Shown in pieces: positions 406-7,078 of a stretch of 60,192 nucleotides of DNA (position 1 is the stretch's first letter; each line of letters opens with the position of its first letter). Below the pieces are notes generated by a model. The model was not told the origin of the DNA, did not search any database, and worked only from the letters and a program-made list of their open reading frames with translations. The translations under genes and the position numbers were made by a program. The stretch comes from Clostridia bacterium (GTDB lineage Bacteria; Bacillota; Clostridia; Christensenellales; Aristaeellaceae), in assembly GCA_017549335.1 (NCBI GenBank), contig JAFYVB010000015.1, positions 1-60,192 on the forward strand, given 5' to 3'.

Positions 406-1194
406 TCAGTTGTTTCCGCAGGAAGTGCAGCCGCAGCGTCCGCAGCAGCCGCGCGCAGTGCCCGTATTGCTCGCGGCATTGCCCGTCGTTTCGTTACAAA
501 GATTCATGGAAGGGAACAGCGGCAGGCTGAAGAATTCGTCGCACACATTATCGGCGAACTCCTCGCAGGGAGGAATGGCGCAATAACCGTAGGAGGGCAC
601 CAGAATTTCTACCTGCGCCAGTACCTTAAGAATGATGGACACGCAGATCGTCAGGTTGAAAACATTGTTGCCGCGATAGCAGCCCGATACGCAGATGGCA
701 CTGGCAAGACCCTCCAGCGTATACGGCACAATGGAATCGTCAGGCACGCTCAGGAGCACATCCTTATTGACGCGCACAACGCCGCGGCCGATGTATTCAA
801 CGCAGCGGGAGTCAACGAAGAGCACTTCGATGGGGATCTCGATATAGCCGCGCACACGGGCAAAGCAAGGACGGTCGCACAGTCGTTCGACACTCAGGTT
901 GGAGATATCGATGTTTGCCGTGCTGGATCGGCAGCTTTCAAAGGTAAAAGGCTCCACGGGAGCGGTGGGGGCAGGAACATTCTGCGCATTGGCAGGGCAT
1001 CCGCAATCGTTTACCACCTGCGCATAGCCGGTGATCATTACGCTGACGTTGTCCAGCTGCTCCTGCTGCAGACAGCTGTCGTATACGCGCTGCACCTGAA
1101 TGCAGATTCTCTCGTTCAGCCCGTCGAGCGCGCTGCCCGCGATCTCACCGGGGCTGTTTACGGGATTGGCATTTTTATAAGAATAGAAAGACAT
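406..1194 (-). CDS. Cysteine-rich protein, spore-coat-like
   Basis: Encodes 262 residues with 20 cysteines and no signal peptide or membrane segment. The middle (about residues 110-205) is a hydrophobic beta-rich domain; the C-terminus ends in a Cys/Gly cluster (GCCGRCGCTSC). An N-terminal element of the type ERICIQVQRVYDSC resembles clostridial proteins of unknown function that carry regularly spaced cysteines and are often linked to spore outer layers. That link is from memory of the family style, not proven here. The start has a good AAGGAGG site. The gene is alone between two terminators. A structural spore-surface or metal-binding role is plausible; the function is not established. Confidence 0.55.
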   Translation of the reverse strand: MSFYSYKNANPVNSPGEIAGSALDGLNERICIQVQRVYDSCLQQEQLDNVSVMITGYAQVVNDCGCPANAQNVPAPTAPVEPFTFESCRSSTANIDISNLSVERLCDRPCFARVRGYIEIPIEVLFVDSRCVEYIGRGVVRVNKDVLLSVPDDSIVPYTLEGLASAICVSGCYRGNNVFNLTICVSIILKVLAQVEILVPSYGYCAIPPCEEFADNVCDEFFSLPLFPSMNLCNETTGNAASNTGTARGCCGRCGCTSCGNN

Positions 1195-1305: not shown

Positions 1306-2109
1306 TCATTCTTTTTTCAGCGTCGCCCGATAGATATGAGAACCATTTTCATTGAAAGCAATATACCAGTCGTTGCCGATGCGGAACAGGCTTTCTATTT
1401 CTTTACGGGATTGCACACGGATGCGGTTTATGAAATTTCCTTCCCAATCGTATACCATGATTATGTTTTCCTTGGCGTCGTCGGTATTCTGGGGGAAATA
1501 AATATAGTTTTCATCGCATTCGCAGCCCTGCTTGACCAGCGAGGTATTGATCCCCTTGAACCGCTGTATCTTTTTAAAATCCTTGTCAAGAATCACAAAG
1601 TCATAGGAGCCGCTGATACCGATAATATACTGATCCCGCGAAGGCTCATACGCCATGCAGTAAATCTGATAGGGCATGGTCTTTGCACCGAGGATCTCCA
1701 GCGTTTTAGGATCCACAAAGCTTACGCGGGTGTATCTGGGTTTGTTATGCACCACAAGCAGCTGACCGAGTTTGGGATTGTAGGTCATGTCGTTTCCGTG
1801 ATCCAGATCAAGACCGTACCGGATATCGGCCACCGACCAATCCTTCATATCAAGCTTCCAGATCGAGCAGCGCTTTATTTTTTGATTTTCAAGGATAGCA
1901 TAAGCATATTCCCCATCCGATGCAAAGCCCTGCTGCACATGATAATGCCGCAGCTCCCTGGTAAAAGGCGGGTATAAACGCGCAACGCGCCGGAGCGTCA
2001 TAACAAAAGCGTCCGTCGTATTTAAATTTTCCTCCGTCCGTTCCCCCGCAAAACAAGCAGTGGGAATCAGCAAAGCAAATATGCACAAAGCAGAAATCAG
2101 CTTTTTCAT
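1306..2109 (-). CDS. Secreted protein with propeller-like repeats, function unknown
   Basis: The chosen start (2109) gives 267 residues beginning with MKK and a clear signal peptide ending in TACFAGE; a GGAG site sits just upstream. A longer frame from 2151 would bury the signal peptide. The mature part carries repeated blocks such as YAYAILENQKI, QLLVVHNKP, YIIGISGSYDF and WYIAFNENG, spaced like blades of a beta-propeller. There is no lipobox, so release by signal peptidase I is expected. It follows the HD-domain gene after 56 bp on the same strand and could be the last gene of the ZorAB-like operon, but may be unrelated. No catalytic motif was recognised. Confidence 0.6.
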   Translation of the reverse strand: MKKLISALCIFALLIPTACFAGERTEENLNTTDAFVMTLRRVARLYPPFTRELRHYHVQQGFASDGEYAYAILENQKIKRCSIWKLDMKDWSVADIRYGLDLDHGNDMTYNPKLGQLLVVHNKPRYTRVSFVDPKTLEILGAKTMPYQIYCMAYEPSRDQYIIGISGSYDFVILDKDFKKIQRFKGINTSLVKQGCECDENYIYFPQNTDDAKENIIMVYDWEGNFINRIRVQSRKEIESLFRIGNDWYIAFNENGSHIYRATLKKE

Positions 2110-2165
2110 TTTATCTCCGTCCCCCAGCAAGGGAAAACAGCCCGTTTGCACGAGCTGCCCTTATT

Positions 2166-2846
2166 TTACAAAATGGCCGTATCGTTGATATTCATGCGGA
2201 ACGTAAGGCCCAGCTTTTCGCAGGCGCGCCGGCAAAGCTGCATACGCGAAAGGAACGCTTCAAAGAACTCCATCACCGAGCTGTAACGGGTATCGATACC
2301 GATGTTCAGCCACAGTTCTTTTTTGTCCCTGTCCACCGTCACCTGCGTTCTGACAGCGGAATAATTGACGCGGTCATGCATATCAAAGGTATTTTCATCA
2401 ACCGAGCCATCCTCTTCTCTACGCACGCGGGTACGGCGAACGTCCGCCTTATCGGCAATGATCAGCGCCGCCGCGATGGGCGTTACAGGCTCGGCCACCG
2501 ATTCGTCATGGTGCCCGACAGCCGTCACCACCGCCGCAACGTCGGAATAATCAAATCCCAGGCGCACGAGGATCTGCTGCGCCATCAGCGCACCCGACTG
2601 GGCATGATCCTTGCGGTTGACCAGATTTCCGATATCATGCAGCCATGCCGCAATCTGCGCCAGTTCCACTTCATGGGCAGAATACCCCAGCGTTTCCAGG
2701 ATCTTTCCGGCCACCGAAGCCACGCGCCCCACATGAGCAAAGGAATGCTCCGTATAGCCGATGGCTTCCACAATTTCGTCAGCCGCCGTGATATATGCCA
2801 TGGCCTCCGGATCGTTTCTTACTTTTTCAAAAGCTTGTCCGTTCAT
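2166..2846 (-). CDS. HD-domain phosphohydrolase
   Basis: 226 residues. It has the HD-superfamily metal signature: H38, the HD pair at 70-71 in WLHDIGN, H81, the HH pair at 112-113 and D132 in IADKAD. Such enzymes hydrolyse phosphate esters, often nucleotides or cyclic nucleotides; the substrate cannot be read from sequence. The C-terminal 80 residues form an extra domain of unknown role. No membrane segment is seen, so it should be cytoplasmic. It starts 8 bp after the small membrane-protein gene with an AAGGAG site and is therefore co-transcribed with the ZorA/ZorB-like genes. It could supply a second messenger-cleaving or nucleotide-depleting activity to that module (inference). Confidence 0.8.
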   Translation of the reverse strand: MNGQAFEKVRNDPEAMAYITAADEIVEAIGYTEHSFAHVGRVASVAGKILETLGYSAHEVELAQIAAWLHDIGNLVNRKDHAQSGALMAQQILVRLGFDYSDVAAVVTAVGHHDESVAEPVTPIAAALIIADKADVRRTRVRREEDGSVDENTFDMHDRVNYSAVRTQVTVDRDKKELWLNIGIDTRYSSVMEFFEAFLSRMQLCRRACEKLGLTFRMNINDTAIL

Positions 2847-2854
2847 TTTTCTCC

Positions 2855-3367
2855 TTAATTATAAACAGCAGTCACCGTAACGGGAATTCCCCAAATGTAA
2901 TAGGTGATATAGAAAGAGCGCGTCACGATATGATTGTCCTGATTCTGTTTGCTGGTGATCAGCACCGTCCACACGTCCCGTTCGCTTCCCGAAGGGATCA
3001 CGGTATTGGCATTGATCCCCTCAGTATTGGTGGTGGAATAGGAAAGCACGTCGCCGTTGACAGGCACCGTCTGCACCTCCACCATTTCGGCGTCGATCAA
3101 ACCCTTGTTGCGCAGGCGCAGCGTATATACGAAATAACTGTAATCCGCCGCCGTTCCGGGGATGCTTTGGGTATATGCCGTGCCGCAGACGGCGCCGTTA
3201 TCCACCGCGCTTTGCCAGGAAGCAAAATCCTCTGCCTGCTGAGTGGCGGGATACGCCTCCAGCGAGATCTCGGCTACCTCCAGGCGGATATTGACATAGG
3301 CATATACGCCCAGCGCCGCTGCCAGCAGCACCAGCACCACGGTAAATACTGCTATATATTTCATCAT
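2855..3367 (-). CDS. One-pass membrane protein with extracytoplasmic beta domain
   Basis: 170 residues: one N-terminal membrane helix (about 5-26) and then an outside domain rich in alternating hydrophobic strands (for example YSYFVYTLRLRN, WTVLITSKQ, RSFYITYYIWG), looking Ig-like. The start codon overlaps the stop of the OmpA-like gene by one base (TGATG), which implies translational coupling. A second ATG follows directly. No family was recognised. Because it is locked into the operon between the PG-binding anchor and the HD hydrolase, it is probably a structural or sensing partner of the channel complex (inference). Confidence 0.65.
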   Translation of the reverse strand: MMKYIAVFTVVLVLLAAALGVYAYVNIRLEVAEISLEAYPATQQAEDFASWQSAVDNGAVCGTAYTQSIPGTAADYSYFVYTLRLRNKGLIDAEMVEVQTVPVNGDVLSYSTTNTEGINANTVIPSGSERDVWTVLITSKQNQDNHIVTRSFYITYYIWGIPVTVTAVYN

Positions 3368-4383
3368 CAGTTCTCCATACGCGAAAGGATTTCATTCATC
3401 TGCTGGATCATTTCAGCATCCTTCAGACGGAATTTGATTTCCACGCGGCGGGAACGCTGCTGATCCTCCCGACCGTTCACATAGATGGGATCGGAATAGC
3501 TGCGGCCCGTGGCCGTGATAATATCCTTCAGTTTCGTTTTCTGTTGACCGGTCAGCGTCTTCATATCAAGACAGTACATGACCACATTCAGCGCGCGCTC
3601 CTGCGAAAGCTCCAGATTGCGCGCATAGGTGCCGGTGGAGTCGGTATGTCCTTCAATGATGATCTCCGCTACGTAGTCCTTATATTCGTCCCGCATCAGA
3701 ACGCCCAGATATACGGGCATCAGGCGGTTGAGCTGTGCGTAGCCTTCGTCGGAAAGCTTACTGCTGTTCACCTCAAACATGAGCGTGCTGTCCAGCACGA
3801 TATCGCCGGTGTTTTCATCTACCTTGGCGGAAATGCGCGCAGCCGACAGCGCCTGGCTCAGCTCACGCACGATTTTGGTGCGCACGCCCAGCATATCAGC
3901 CAGCTGCAGCTGGTAACCCTCCAGCTCTTCTTCCTTGGCAGCCAGCACGATCTGCAGCGCCGCCACTTTGTTCTGCTGATCCGCCAGATCGGATTCCTTG
4001 AGATTGATCTGCACCAGCAAATCGTTATTCTGCGCTTCCTGCTCATTGAGCTTGAGCTGCGCAGCAAAAAGCTCGGCTTCCTGCGCATCCAACTGGATCT
4101 GGATCGCCGCCAGCTCTTCTTCCTTGCCCATCAGCGTCACGCGGGTAGTTTCAAGATCGCTTTCCTTTTGTGCAAGAGTGATCTGCGCCGCATCCAGCGC
4201 CGCCTGCTGTTCTCCCAGCTCCTTTGTTTTGGTCTCCAGCAAATTATAATACTGATAAATACACAAACAAATGGCCATGATGAACACCAGCAGCAGCGAA
4301 GCCATCATATCCGAATAGGAGATCCAGTACGCGCCGTTATCCATACTTCTGCGTCCGCGGCCCGTGCCTTTCCGTGTTCTCAT
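3367..4383 (-). CDS. OmpA/MotB/ZorB-like peptidoglycan-binding stator protein
   Basis: 338 residues. A short basic N-terminus is followed by one membrane helix (about 21-43) that contains an aspartate (D25 in ISYSDMM), placed like the ion-binding Asp of MotB and ZorB. Next is a long coiled coil (about 48-170) of repeated EELAAIQIQL-type heptads. The C-terminal OmpA domain (about 190-320) has the peptidoglycan-binding pattern EGHTDSTG and RSRRVEIKF. The coiled coil is longer than I expect for ZorB. The start lies one base past the end of the ZorA-like gene, with its GGAGG site inside that gene. With the MotA-type partner it should form an ion-driven inner complex anchored to the wall. No ZorC, D or E genes are nearby. 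Confidence 0.8.
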   Translation of the reverse strand: MRTRKGTGRGRRSMDNGAYWISYSDMMASLLLVFIMAICLCIYQYYNLLETKTKELGEQQAALDAAQITLAQKESDLETTRVTLMGKEEELAAIQIQLDAQEAELFAAQLKLNEQEAQNNDLLVQINLKESDLADQQNKVAALQIVLAAKEEELEGYQLQLADMLGVRTKIVRELSQALSAARISAKVDENTGDIVLDSTLMFEVNSSKLSDEGYAQLNRLMPVYLGVLMRDEYKDYVAEIIIEGHTDSTGTYARNLELSQERALNVVMYCLDMKTLTGQQKTKLKDIITATGRSYSDPIYVNGREDQQRSRRVEIKFRLKDAEMIQQMNEILSRMEN

Positions 4384-4384
4384 A

Positions 4385-5965
4385 TCAGCCCTCCTGCGCG
4401 TCGGCAGCTCCCCTGGACTGTTCCACAGCCGCCGTCATATCGGCAAGCGCACGCTGCATACGCGACAGCGCCGTAATCAGGCCGTCCGTGCTTTCATTGA
4501 GGGCGTCCTGACGGATCCCGTACTGGGTGTTGACCGATTTTGCGGTCTTTTCGATGTTTTCCAGTCTGCCGTCAAGCAGCGACACGACCCCATGCATATT
4601 CTCTTCAAACATACCCATGCTGCGGGAGAGACCCTTGACGATGTTTTCCACAAAGGCGGTATAGCTTTCGGAAAGCTGCTTTCCGCCTTCGCGCATGGCA
4701 GACGCCACGTCGCGGGAGTTGGCAGCCGCCACGTCAGCCTGTTCGTGCACAGCCTCCAGCACCCGACCGCTCCACTGCGCATAATCCTGCATACTGGCCT
4801 GCAGATTATCATGGCCCGAGCGCAGGGACGCCAGGTACTGCCCCTGCTCGTCCATGGAATCGTGCATCGCTTCCAGCAGCATCTGCGTGCTGCTCGTAAA
4901 CGCTTCATGCTCTTCGCGCACGGAGCCCACTTCGCCCGCATAGGCTTCCAGCCGCTCCATTACCTGCTGCATTACGCCGCCCATATTCTGCAGATGCTGC
5001 ATAATGGCGCCGGCTGCGTCAAGGGAGGTATTGAGGGCATTGAAATCCACCTGCTGCGACTGATTGATGGCCGTAAGCGTCTGTCCCAGCTGAGAAAGCT
5101 GACCGTCCAGCGTATCGCTCATTTTATTGATAAAAGTACCCACAATACGGTCCAGACCCTCGATCTGCGTCTGGGTTTCACCCACAATGAACTGATTCAT
5201 GGACTGTACCATCGGCACCATCGTGCGCTCCAGCGCGCCCGCAACGCCGTCGCCCATGCGGGAAGAAAGCTCATTTACGGCATGGCGCATAAAGGCCGCC
5301 TGATCTTCCTGCTGGCAGATCGCCTGCACATTGTCATTGAGCGGCTGCTGCATTACAAATTCGGTAAACGCCTCATGGAAATCATCAATGGCGCGCTGGG
5401 TGGAACCCACAGACGCGCGGTTGATGATATTGAAAGCAAGGGAGCAGGAAACGCCGGCGATGGAAGTGCCAAAGGCAAAGCTCATGCCCTTGATCATATC
5501 CGAAATACTAGACATGGTCTTTTCCGCACTGGAAAGATCCAGCGCACTCAGACCGCGGACAAGACCGATAAACGTACCCAGAATACCCAGGGACGTCAGG
5601 ATACCCGGGATCACCTCCGCCAGCTGCGTATGACCGTTTTCGTCAATAACGGTATCGTCGTTGATGTAGTCCACCACGTCACAGTTGATGCCGCGGCTGT
5701 CCAGCTGCTCGGCGTTGACGAGGAATCTGCGCCATGCATTCTGCAAAGCGCGGCCAAGGAACATGGTATCCTGCCAGATGGGGCGGGTCCCTTCCTTGAT
5801 CGTCATCATTTCCAGCTGGCGAACGCCCCTTCTTAAATGGCGGGCGCACGAACGCGTGGGCATGACACACTTGATCAAGCCCGTCAGCGTCACCACCGCA
5901 ATCGCGATATAAATGGTAACGTCCACCAGACTTGCCGTAAAATTCGCCATCAATTCCGTCAGCAT
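4385..5965 (-). CDS. MotA/ExbB/ZorA-like proton-channel protein with long coiled-coil tail
   Basis: 526 residues from the ATG at 5965, which has a GGAGGA site 7 bp upstream; a longer frame to 6022 lacks one. Three membrane helices are visible: about 13-35, 117-141 (PGILTSLGILGTFIGL, the MotA/ExbB/ZorA core) and 160-182. About 330 residues follow with helical, Gln/Ser-rich sequence that should form a long cytoplasmic tail, as in ZorA, which uses its tail as a signal rod. First gene of a tight operon with the OmpA-like anchor, a one-pass protein and an HD hydrolase. In known Zorya loci ZorAB act with ZorC/D or ZorE; none is present, so this is a relative, not a canonical system. Confidence 0.8.
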   Translation of the reverse strand: MLTELMANFTASLVDVTIYIAIAVVTLTGLIKCVMPTRSCARHLRRGVRQLEMMTIKEGTRPIWQDTMFLGRALQNAWRRFLVNAEQLDSRGINCDVVDYINDDTVIDENGHTQLAEVIPGILTSLGILGTFIGLVRGLSALDLSSAEKTMSSISDMIKGMSFAFGTSIAGVSCSLAFNIINRASVGSTQRAIDDFHEAFTEFVMQQPLNDNVQAICQQEDQAAFMRHAVNELSSRMGDGVAGALERTMVPMVQSMNQFIVGETQTQIEGLDRIVGTFINKMSDTLDGQLSQLGQTLTAINQSQQVDFNALNTSLDAAGAIMQHLQNMGGVMQQVMERLEAYAGEVGSVREEHEAFTSSTQMLLEAMHDSMDEQGQYLASLRSGHDNLQASMQDYAQWSGRVLEAVHEQADVAAANSRDVASAMREGGKQLSESYTAFVENIVKGLSRSMGMFEENMHGVVSLLDGRLENIEKTAKSVNTQYGIRQDALNESTDGLITALSRMQRALADMTAAVEQSRGAADAQEG

Positions 5966-6110: not shown

Positions 6111-6148
6111 AGAGTAGGTTTCTACTATATAAAATGGAGGTAGAGCAG

Positions 6149-7078
6149 TTGATTAAGGTAGATGATTTTGTAAAAGCGCTCTCACTGGATACACTGTGCC
6201 CTTCTTCCAGGACAGTCTGGCAGATCGAAAATGCCGACCTGAACCGTCCCGGACTGCAGCTTGCGGGCCATTACGATTATTTTTCCCGGAAATGTCCGCA
6301 GGTATTGGGCAACACCGAAATGAGCTATCTCAACTCGCTTACTCCCGAAGTGCGCTATGAGCGTCTGAAAAAGTTTTTCAGCTACGATATGCCCTGCGTG
6401 ATCATCTGCCGCGGTCTTGAACCGGTGGCTGAGCTGATCCCCCTGGCAAAGGAGCATGACATTCCCGTGTTCCGCACCGACGCCATCACCGCCCGTTTCT
6501 TTGTTAACGGCATCATCTATATGCGTCAGGCGCTGGCGCCCCGCGCCACGCTCCACGGCGTACTGCTGGACGTTCACGGCATCGGCGTTCTTATCACCGG
6601 CCGCAGCAGCGTGGGCAAGAGCGAAGCGGCGCTGGAGCTGATCAAGCGCGGTCATCAGTTGGTGGCGGACGACGTGGTGGATATCTGCAAGGTTTCCGAC
6701 GATCAGCTGGTGGGCGAATCCCCCGAAATGGTGCGCCACCTGATGGAGATCCGCGGCATCGGCATCATCGATATCAAGGCCATGTACGGCATCGGCTCCG
6801 TGCTTCCCCATAAAAAGATCCAGCTGGTCATCCATCTCGAAAAATGGGATGAAACCAAAGAATACGACCGCTACGGTCTGACGGACGAATACACCGAGAT
6901 CATGGGCGTCAAGCTTCCCCAGCTGATCCTGCCCGTGAAGCCCGGCCGCAATCTGGCTATCATCATCGAGGTGGCTGCCCGTAATTTCGGTCTCAAGCGC
7001 CTTGGTTATTCCGCAGCCGAAGAGCTCAACCGCCGCACCAACGAAATGATGCAGCGTCACATGAACGGAGGAAACTGA
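6149..7078 (+). CDS. hprK: HPr kinase/phosphorylase
   Basis: Bifunctional enzyme that phosphorylates and dephosphorylates Ser46 of HPr, the switch for carbon catabolite control in Firmicutes. From the TTG at 6149 it has 309 residues, the usual length; the GGAGG at 6136-6140 fits this TTG, while the ATG at 6134 contains the SD itself. The C-terminal kinase domain shows the P-loop GRSSVGKS (about 151-158), the VADDVV element and the HprK signature EIRGIGIIDIKAMYG (about 200-214); the N-terminal domain is the variable HprK fold. It is followed after one base by glucokinase, so sugar entry into glycolysis and catabolite control are co-transcribed. Confidence 0.93.
   Translation: MIKVDDFVKALSLDTLCPSSRTVWQIENADLNRPGLQLAGHYDYFSRKCPQVLGNTEMSYLNSLTPEVRYERLKKFFSYDMPCVIICRGLEPVAELIPLAKEHDIPVFRTDAITARFFVNGIIYMRQALAPRATLHGVLLDVHGIGVLITGRSSVGKSEAALELIKRGHQLVADDVVDICKVSDDQLVGESPEMVRHLMEIRGIGIIDIKAMYGIGSVLPHKKIQLVIHLEKWDETKEYDRYGLTDEYTEIMGVKLPQLILPVKPGRNLAIIIEVAARNFGLKRLGYSAAEELNRRTNEMMQRHMNGGN

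Follow-up and report, generated by a model that had tools for sequence, protein, structure and literature searches.

The DNA analysed here (the window) is a 60,192-nucleotide stretch from a Clostridia bacterium of the family Aristaeellaceae (order Christensenellales), and our subject is a run of genes on its minus strand that encodes a motor related to the ZorA/ZorB (ZorAB) pair of the Zorya systems. Four open reading frames (ORFs) of 526, 338, 170 and 226 amino acids are separated by 1, −1 and 8 bases; ribosome-binding-like, purine-rich stretches precede the first, second and fourth (zorA, zorB and the HD gene). The zorA-like gene (4385..5965, counted from ATG) encodes a MotA/ExbB/ZorA-type motor domain (Pfam MotA_ExbB, E 1.2e-5, core at 5381-5629) and a helical tail of ~300 residues. 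The zorB-like gene (3367..4383) encodes an N-terminal membrane helix, a long linker that reads as a coiled coil, and an OmpA-type domain (residues 202-312, at 3448..3780; PF00691, E 7.7e-14). Its membrane aspartate, Asp25 (codon at 4309..4311), is invariant in our alignment and we take it to be the ion-carrying Asp of MotB-type axles. The third gene, smp (2855..3367), encodes a one-pass protein, SMP, with a helix (residues 2-25, at 3293-3364) and an Ig-like β sandwich, and the fourth (2166..2846) an HD-domain hydrolase (PF01966, E 3.5e-11). An earlier note on this DNA had described four tightly coupled genes with MotA-type, OmpA and HD domains and an Ig-like membrane protein; the coordinates and spacings, the Pfam and PADLOC matches and the SMP structure prediction described below all agree with it.

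Both motor proteins match PADLOC models (ZorA, E 2.7e-27; ZorB, E 1.6e-67 with the ZorB1 model). ZorA is nearest to Zorya ZorA by profile and by predicted fold and has kept the helical tail; the predicted fold is that of the A-subunit in the MotAB/ExbBD/TolQR/ZorAB superfamily of 5:2 ion-driven rotary motors. The ZorB profile is nearest to the solved ZorB structures, and Asp25 and the OmpA signature residues are invariant in 28/28 alignment rows. The distance from the membrane Asp to the OmpA signature is 191-247 residues in 17 ZorB proteins of the kind found in the window and 104-125 in six ZorB from Zorya I and II. Two of the Zorya proteins come from Clostridia and are short as well (125 and 123); the long linker is therefore not accounted for by wall thickness alone.

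Two unusual architectures were seen. At locus L269 (G203:C206, 5484-7652; genus g107) ZorA and ZorB appear to form one open frame of 722 amino acids, with MotA_ExbB, MotB_plug and OmpA in a single protein; smp and then an M15 peptidase gene come next. If this is a real fusion, it would change the 5:2 arithmetic. At L248 (G444:C6, 5768-8886) a MotA_ExbB/ZorA-like N-terminus is joined to an EAL domain (2.7e-28) and there is no coiled-coil tail; its neighbours are a weakly ParA-like gene and a ZorB-like protein in which SpaA-type repeats take the place of OmpA. This is perhaps a motor coupled to cyclic-di-GMP.

SMP gave nothing above the curated Pfam cut-off and no NCBIfam or PADLOC match. The AlphaFold model (64 sequences) is confident (pLDDT 92.9, pTM 0.84) and consists of helix 2-25 and the β sandwich, with generic matches to Ig-like or appendage domains; the Ig-like domain probably faces outward. 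We found smp directly after zorB in 36/40 loci picked from the best-listed matches and in 70/80 loci of named genomes, two sets that overlap; named genomes contain at least 562 relatives, of which these 80 were kept. Seven of the ten exceptions lie at contig edges; in L129, L130 and L139 smp is missing beside zorB. Among 13 loci from deeper genera the two genes adjoin only in L269; in 11 of the remaining 12 genomes smp lies at another site and scores lower (1e-14 to 1e-31). The conserved unit is thus the trio zorA-zorB-smp, present in many genera.

The trio belongs to the core of the family. zorA was detected in 238/250 family genomes with the ZorA query, and in 112/116 of the better ones (completeness ≥90%, contamination ≤5%). 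When we searched 40 selected genomes with a profile, including all 12 misses, those 12 again gave nothing and the remaining 28 matched. smp was detected in 224/250 (111/116 of the better genomes), and the two together, counted from the two lists, in 220/250. Retention of zorA on this scale rules out chance for the observed locus. Of 200 genomes of the order, 15 gave zorA matches, 13 of them members of the family and two weak; of 341 genomes of the class, five gave smp matches, two from the family and three weak. The titles of the named relatives read Clostridia, Clostridiales, Eubacteriales, Bacillota, Christensenellaceae or Christensenella, and many are from rumen and gut. No relative was found in the viral contigs searched, and plasmid ZorB matches (33 records) are all below 60% identity. 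Genera are monophyletic in 14/15 cases in the ZorA tree (87 sequences) and in 11/15 in the ZorB tree (84 sequences), which points to mostly vertical descent. The divergent neighbour upstream, hprK (6134..7078, plus strand), also adjoins zorA in loci of other genera, and this position is kept within some genera and not across the family. The earlier note named a universally conserved housekeeping locus at a fixed position as what would speak against its module, and the data go largely that way: zorA is nearly universal in the family, with a fixed position within some genera.

PMC11890865 reports that Zorya I and II depend on ion flow, on the tail of ZorA and on binding to peptidoglycan. The trio shares with Zorya type I (8qyd, 8vvn) the ZorA motor fold and helical tail and the ZorB membrane Asp and OmpA domain. 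It differs in that no ZorC or ZorD is recognised beside it, its ZorB is ~100 residues longer between membrane and OmpA domain, it often has the Ig-like partner, and its distribution is core and mostly vertical. With type II (ZorA, ZorB, ZorE) it shares the two motor subunits, but no HNH nuclease is recognised at the trio and the type II linker is 110-123 residues in three examples, against 191-247. True Zorya systems occur in other Clostridia, type I at L253 (ZorA, ZorB, EH_Signature, SNF2-Mrr) and type II at L251 (ZorA, ZorB, HNH); a Nostoc locus (L257) matches the ZorA1, ZorB1 and ZorC1 models and has a helicase. A third ZorAB-like clostridial lineage, with a TPR-type third gene, was seen at L250, L252, L255 and, weakly, L249. 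It resembles the trio in its ZorA (~490 amino acids), the long linker (187-199 residues in four ZorB) and a third gene outside the known defence families; that gene is, however, TPR-like, whereas SMP is a membrane Ig-like protein. A tree built from 28 joined ZorA-ZorB pairs places the trio in one clade with support 93 (90 and 75 when ZorA and ZorB are analysed separately); type II and the TPR lineage each form a clade of their own with support 100, and type I forms no single clade.

ZorAB is regarded as a sensor-motor for anti-phage defence, and a patchy, island-borne distribution is usual for defence systems. The trio could be a core-genome immune sensor, in which ZorAB with SMP as outer-face sensor detects phage wall damage and activates an effector encoded elsewhere. 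The nearest solved relatives are Zorya defence proteins, the clostridial type I ZorB of L253 scores E 3e-65 with the trio ZorB profile, the helical ZorA tail is retained and SMP diverges fast. However, presence in 238/250 genomes with 14/15 genera monophyletic is neither patchy nor island-borne, and such mostly vertical descent is unusual for defence genes. The known effectors were also sought. The window operon shows the ZorA and ZorB models and neither ZorC+ZorD, ZorE nor ZorF+ZorG, in keeping with the earlier description of a ZorAB-type motor and one-pass protein without ZorC, ZorD or ZorE. The scan of the surroundings took in 14 loci and 106 neighbouring ORFs, selected from 152 listed ones for their length and conservation; some may be spurious. 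ZorC and ZorE are not among the 25 of 36 PADLOC families listed for them, and each ZorD model gives the one match expected from the added control. The matches listed (E 1e-15) are mad3 on three ORFs and the DpdJ, PDC-S01, BrxH, SngC and IetA models on single ORFs; DpdE models also match the ZorD control. Pfam families (25 of 112 listed) include MarR, bacterial SH3, ABC transporter, sigma-70, ROK, Fe hydrogenase, HprK, class II tRNA synthetase, RNase E/G and SmpB. A location in a defence island was set aside on these scans. A search for EH_Signature (ZorC) found it in 0/100 family genomes, with the controls silent too. Since the effector and distribution features of Zorya were looked for and not found, we do not class the locus as a Zorya system, and we regard the immune sensor as unlikely, though the likeliest of the alternatives.

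A link to the cell wall comes from the 3' side of the trio. In 23/80 named loci an M15 peptidase gene follows smp or is fused to it; the two genes overlap by 16 bases in 15 of these loci and are 380 bases apart in L097. Most unfused copies begin with what looks by eye like a signal peptide, which is not plain in L098, L135 and L157, nor in L053 and L230 (the latter two outside the 80-locus set). Inspection by eye also finds VanX-type motifs (SxHxxGxxxD-, EWWH- and DAYRP-like), and the closest solved chain is VanX (1r44, 4.4e-54). SMP-peptidase fusions occur in three genomes of one genus, g109 (G205, G246 and G356), with the peptidase at the C-terminus of SMP, an arrangement that would place the enzyme outside the membrane. 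An M15 gene is present somewhere in 66/100 family genomes, mostly away from the zorAB locus. As M15 is mostly off-locus and was not found in the window's own genome, the wall-enzyme link holds for some lineages only.

The MotAB flagellar stator with FliL is likewise a motor with a one-pass partner. The flagellar rotor domain FliG_C was found in 0/60 family genomes (4/14 controls were positive), and a flagellar stator was set aside on this result. A sporulation link was also set aside; Spo0A is present in 32/50 genomes. A homologue of ion motors in a FliG-negative family, together with the long ZorB linker and the Ig-like partner, would also fit a motor that moves cells over surfaces or moves adhesins, comparable to gliding motors. 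No adhesin-type family occurs among the Pfam families listed for the neighbouring ORFs, which is a weak test, and we consider this explanation quite improbable.

The earlier note proposed the HD hydrolase as effector of a membrane-triggered, nucleotide-hydrolysing immune or sensing module, and here the data disagree. The 8-base spacing to smp and the same gene order in G330, whose HD protein is 84% identical to that of the window, speak for such a module, as does the HD gene head-to-head with zorA in G237. However, among nine other genomes with loci of the genus, G330 alone has the HD gene; seven lack it at the locus and the eighth (L085) is cut by a contig end. HD relatives (38-57% identity) are found elsewhere in many family and order genomes, in 95/200 related genomes at E 1e-20, including order genomes and families without detected zorA (e.g. 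G004, G007 and G008). The HD gene is not conserved with the motor, we take it to be a recent neighbour, a lineage-specific passenger, and the module is very improbable. The head-to-head arrangement (L268, G237:C174, 5511-9106) is a single case in another genus.

The run also extends further than four genes. The four described earlier are there, but a fifth ORF (1306..2151) follows, and the conserved unit is three genes. The fifth ORF begins 14 bases after the HD gene if counted from GTG, with the ATG at 2109 the likelier start; it has a signal peptide by eye and is propeller-like only by weak Pfam matches, and within the genus it is doubled in G330, L087 and L166. Beyond it, also on the minus strand, lies the gene of a Cys-rich conserved protein of no Pfam family (406..1194), relatives of which recur 3' of smp in part of the loci, and of unlinked smp as well. 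Upstream of zorA a ROK kinase gene also occurs, divergent like hprK.

Taken together, the data make us lean modestly towards an interpretation of the locus as an ion-driven rotary motor of the ZorAB type, belonging to the family core, whose job is in the cell envelope rather than in phage killing. An envelope role is suggested by the OmpA axle, by the SMP partner and by its fusion, in some lineages, to an enzyme acting on wall peptides, as well as by the distribution; of the two roles offered earlier, immune or envelope sensing, the second fits better. The same superfamily includes ion motors that act on the envelope, TolQRA-Pal and ExbBD-TonB. The motor would operate in the ZorAB manner, with five ZorA subunits around two ZorB helices, and ion flow past Asp25 would turn or switch the complex, while the long linker and the OmpA domain would hold it to peptidoglycan. 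SMP may lie next to the motor on the outside and connect it to the wall as an adaptor that, in some lineages, carries or precedes a putative D-Ala-D-Ala peptidase. The likely job would be sensing or working on the wall during growth, and the parts that Zorya I and II need (wall binding, tail and ion flow) could here serve growth, not defence.

Several observations weigh against this interpretation. Zorya ZorAB also reads the cell wall, and wall binding is therefore compatible with immunity. Outside the genus, identity to the window proteins is 34-49% for ZorA and 22-42% for SMP, whereas hprK, present in six of the loci, reaches 57-62%; such divergence of ZorA and SMP is fast for housekeeping genes. 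The peptidase is at the locus in a minority of lineages only, and no M15 gene was found in the window's own genome (86% complete). A ZorB-like protein from Paracoccus (L256) has an equally long linker (217) and no Asp at that column. Lastly, the parts can live apart: in genus g111 (6 genomes) zorAB is present and no smp was found, G249 lacks zorAB at its place and has kept smp, and three more zorA-negative genomes (G229, G234, G347) retain smp. Loss of the motor is therefore possible without loss of smp, and some species seem to manage without the motor. In G249 (L220, G249:C28, 8687-11596) a UvrD-type helicase gene occupies the zorAB place, between the conserved neighbours and smp.

We speculate further, and only tentatively, that a whole family of non-flagellated Clostridia has a dedicated ion-driven cell-wall machine. 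SMP would be an outer adaptor able to carry a D-Ala-D-Ala peptidase, and the motor would pull on or steer wall enzymes, comparable to Tol-Pal in Gram-negatives; Zorya would then be one offshoot of wall-reading ZorAB motors and the TPR lineage another. Single-gene matches to defence models, such as the ZorB1 match in the window, can fall on core genes. If the envelope reading is true, the ZorAB motor type also has a housekeeping role, and a family-wide ZorAB without recognised effectors would offer a clean comparison for what ZorAB itself does.

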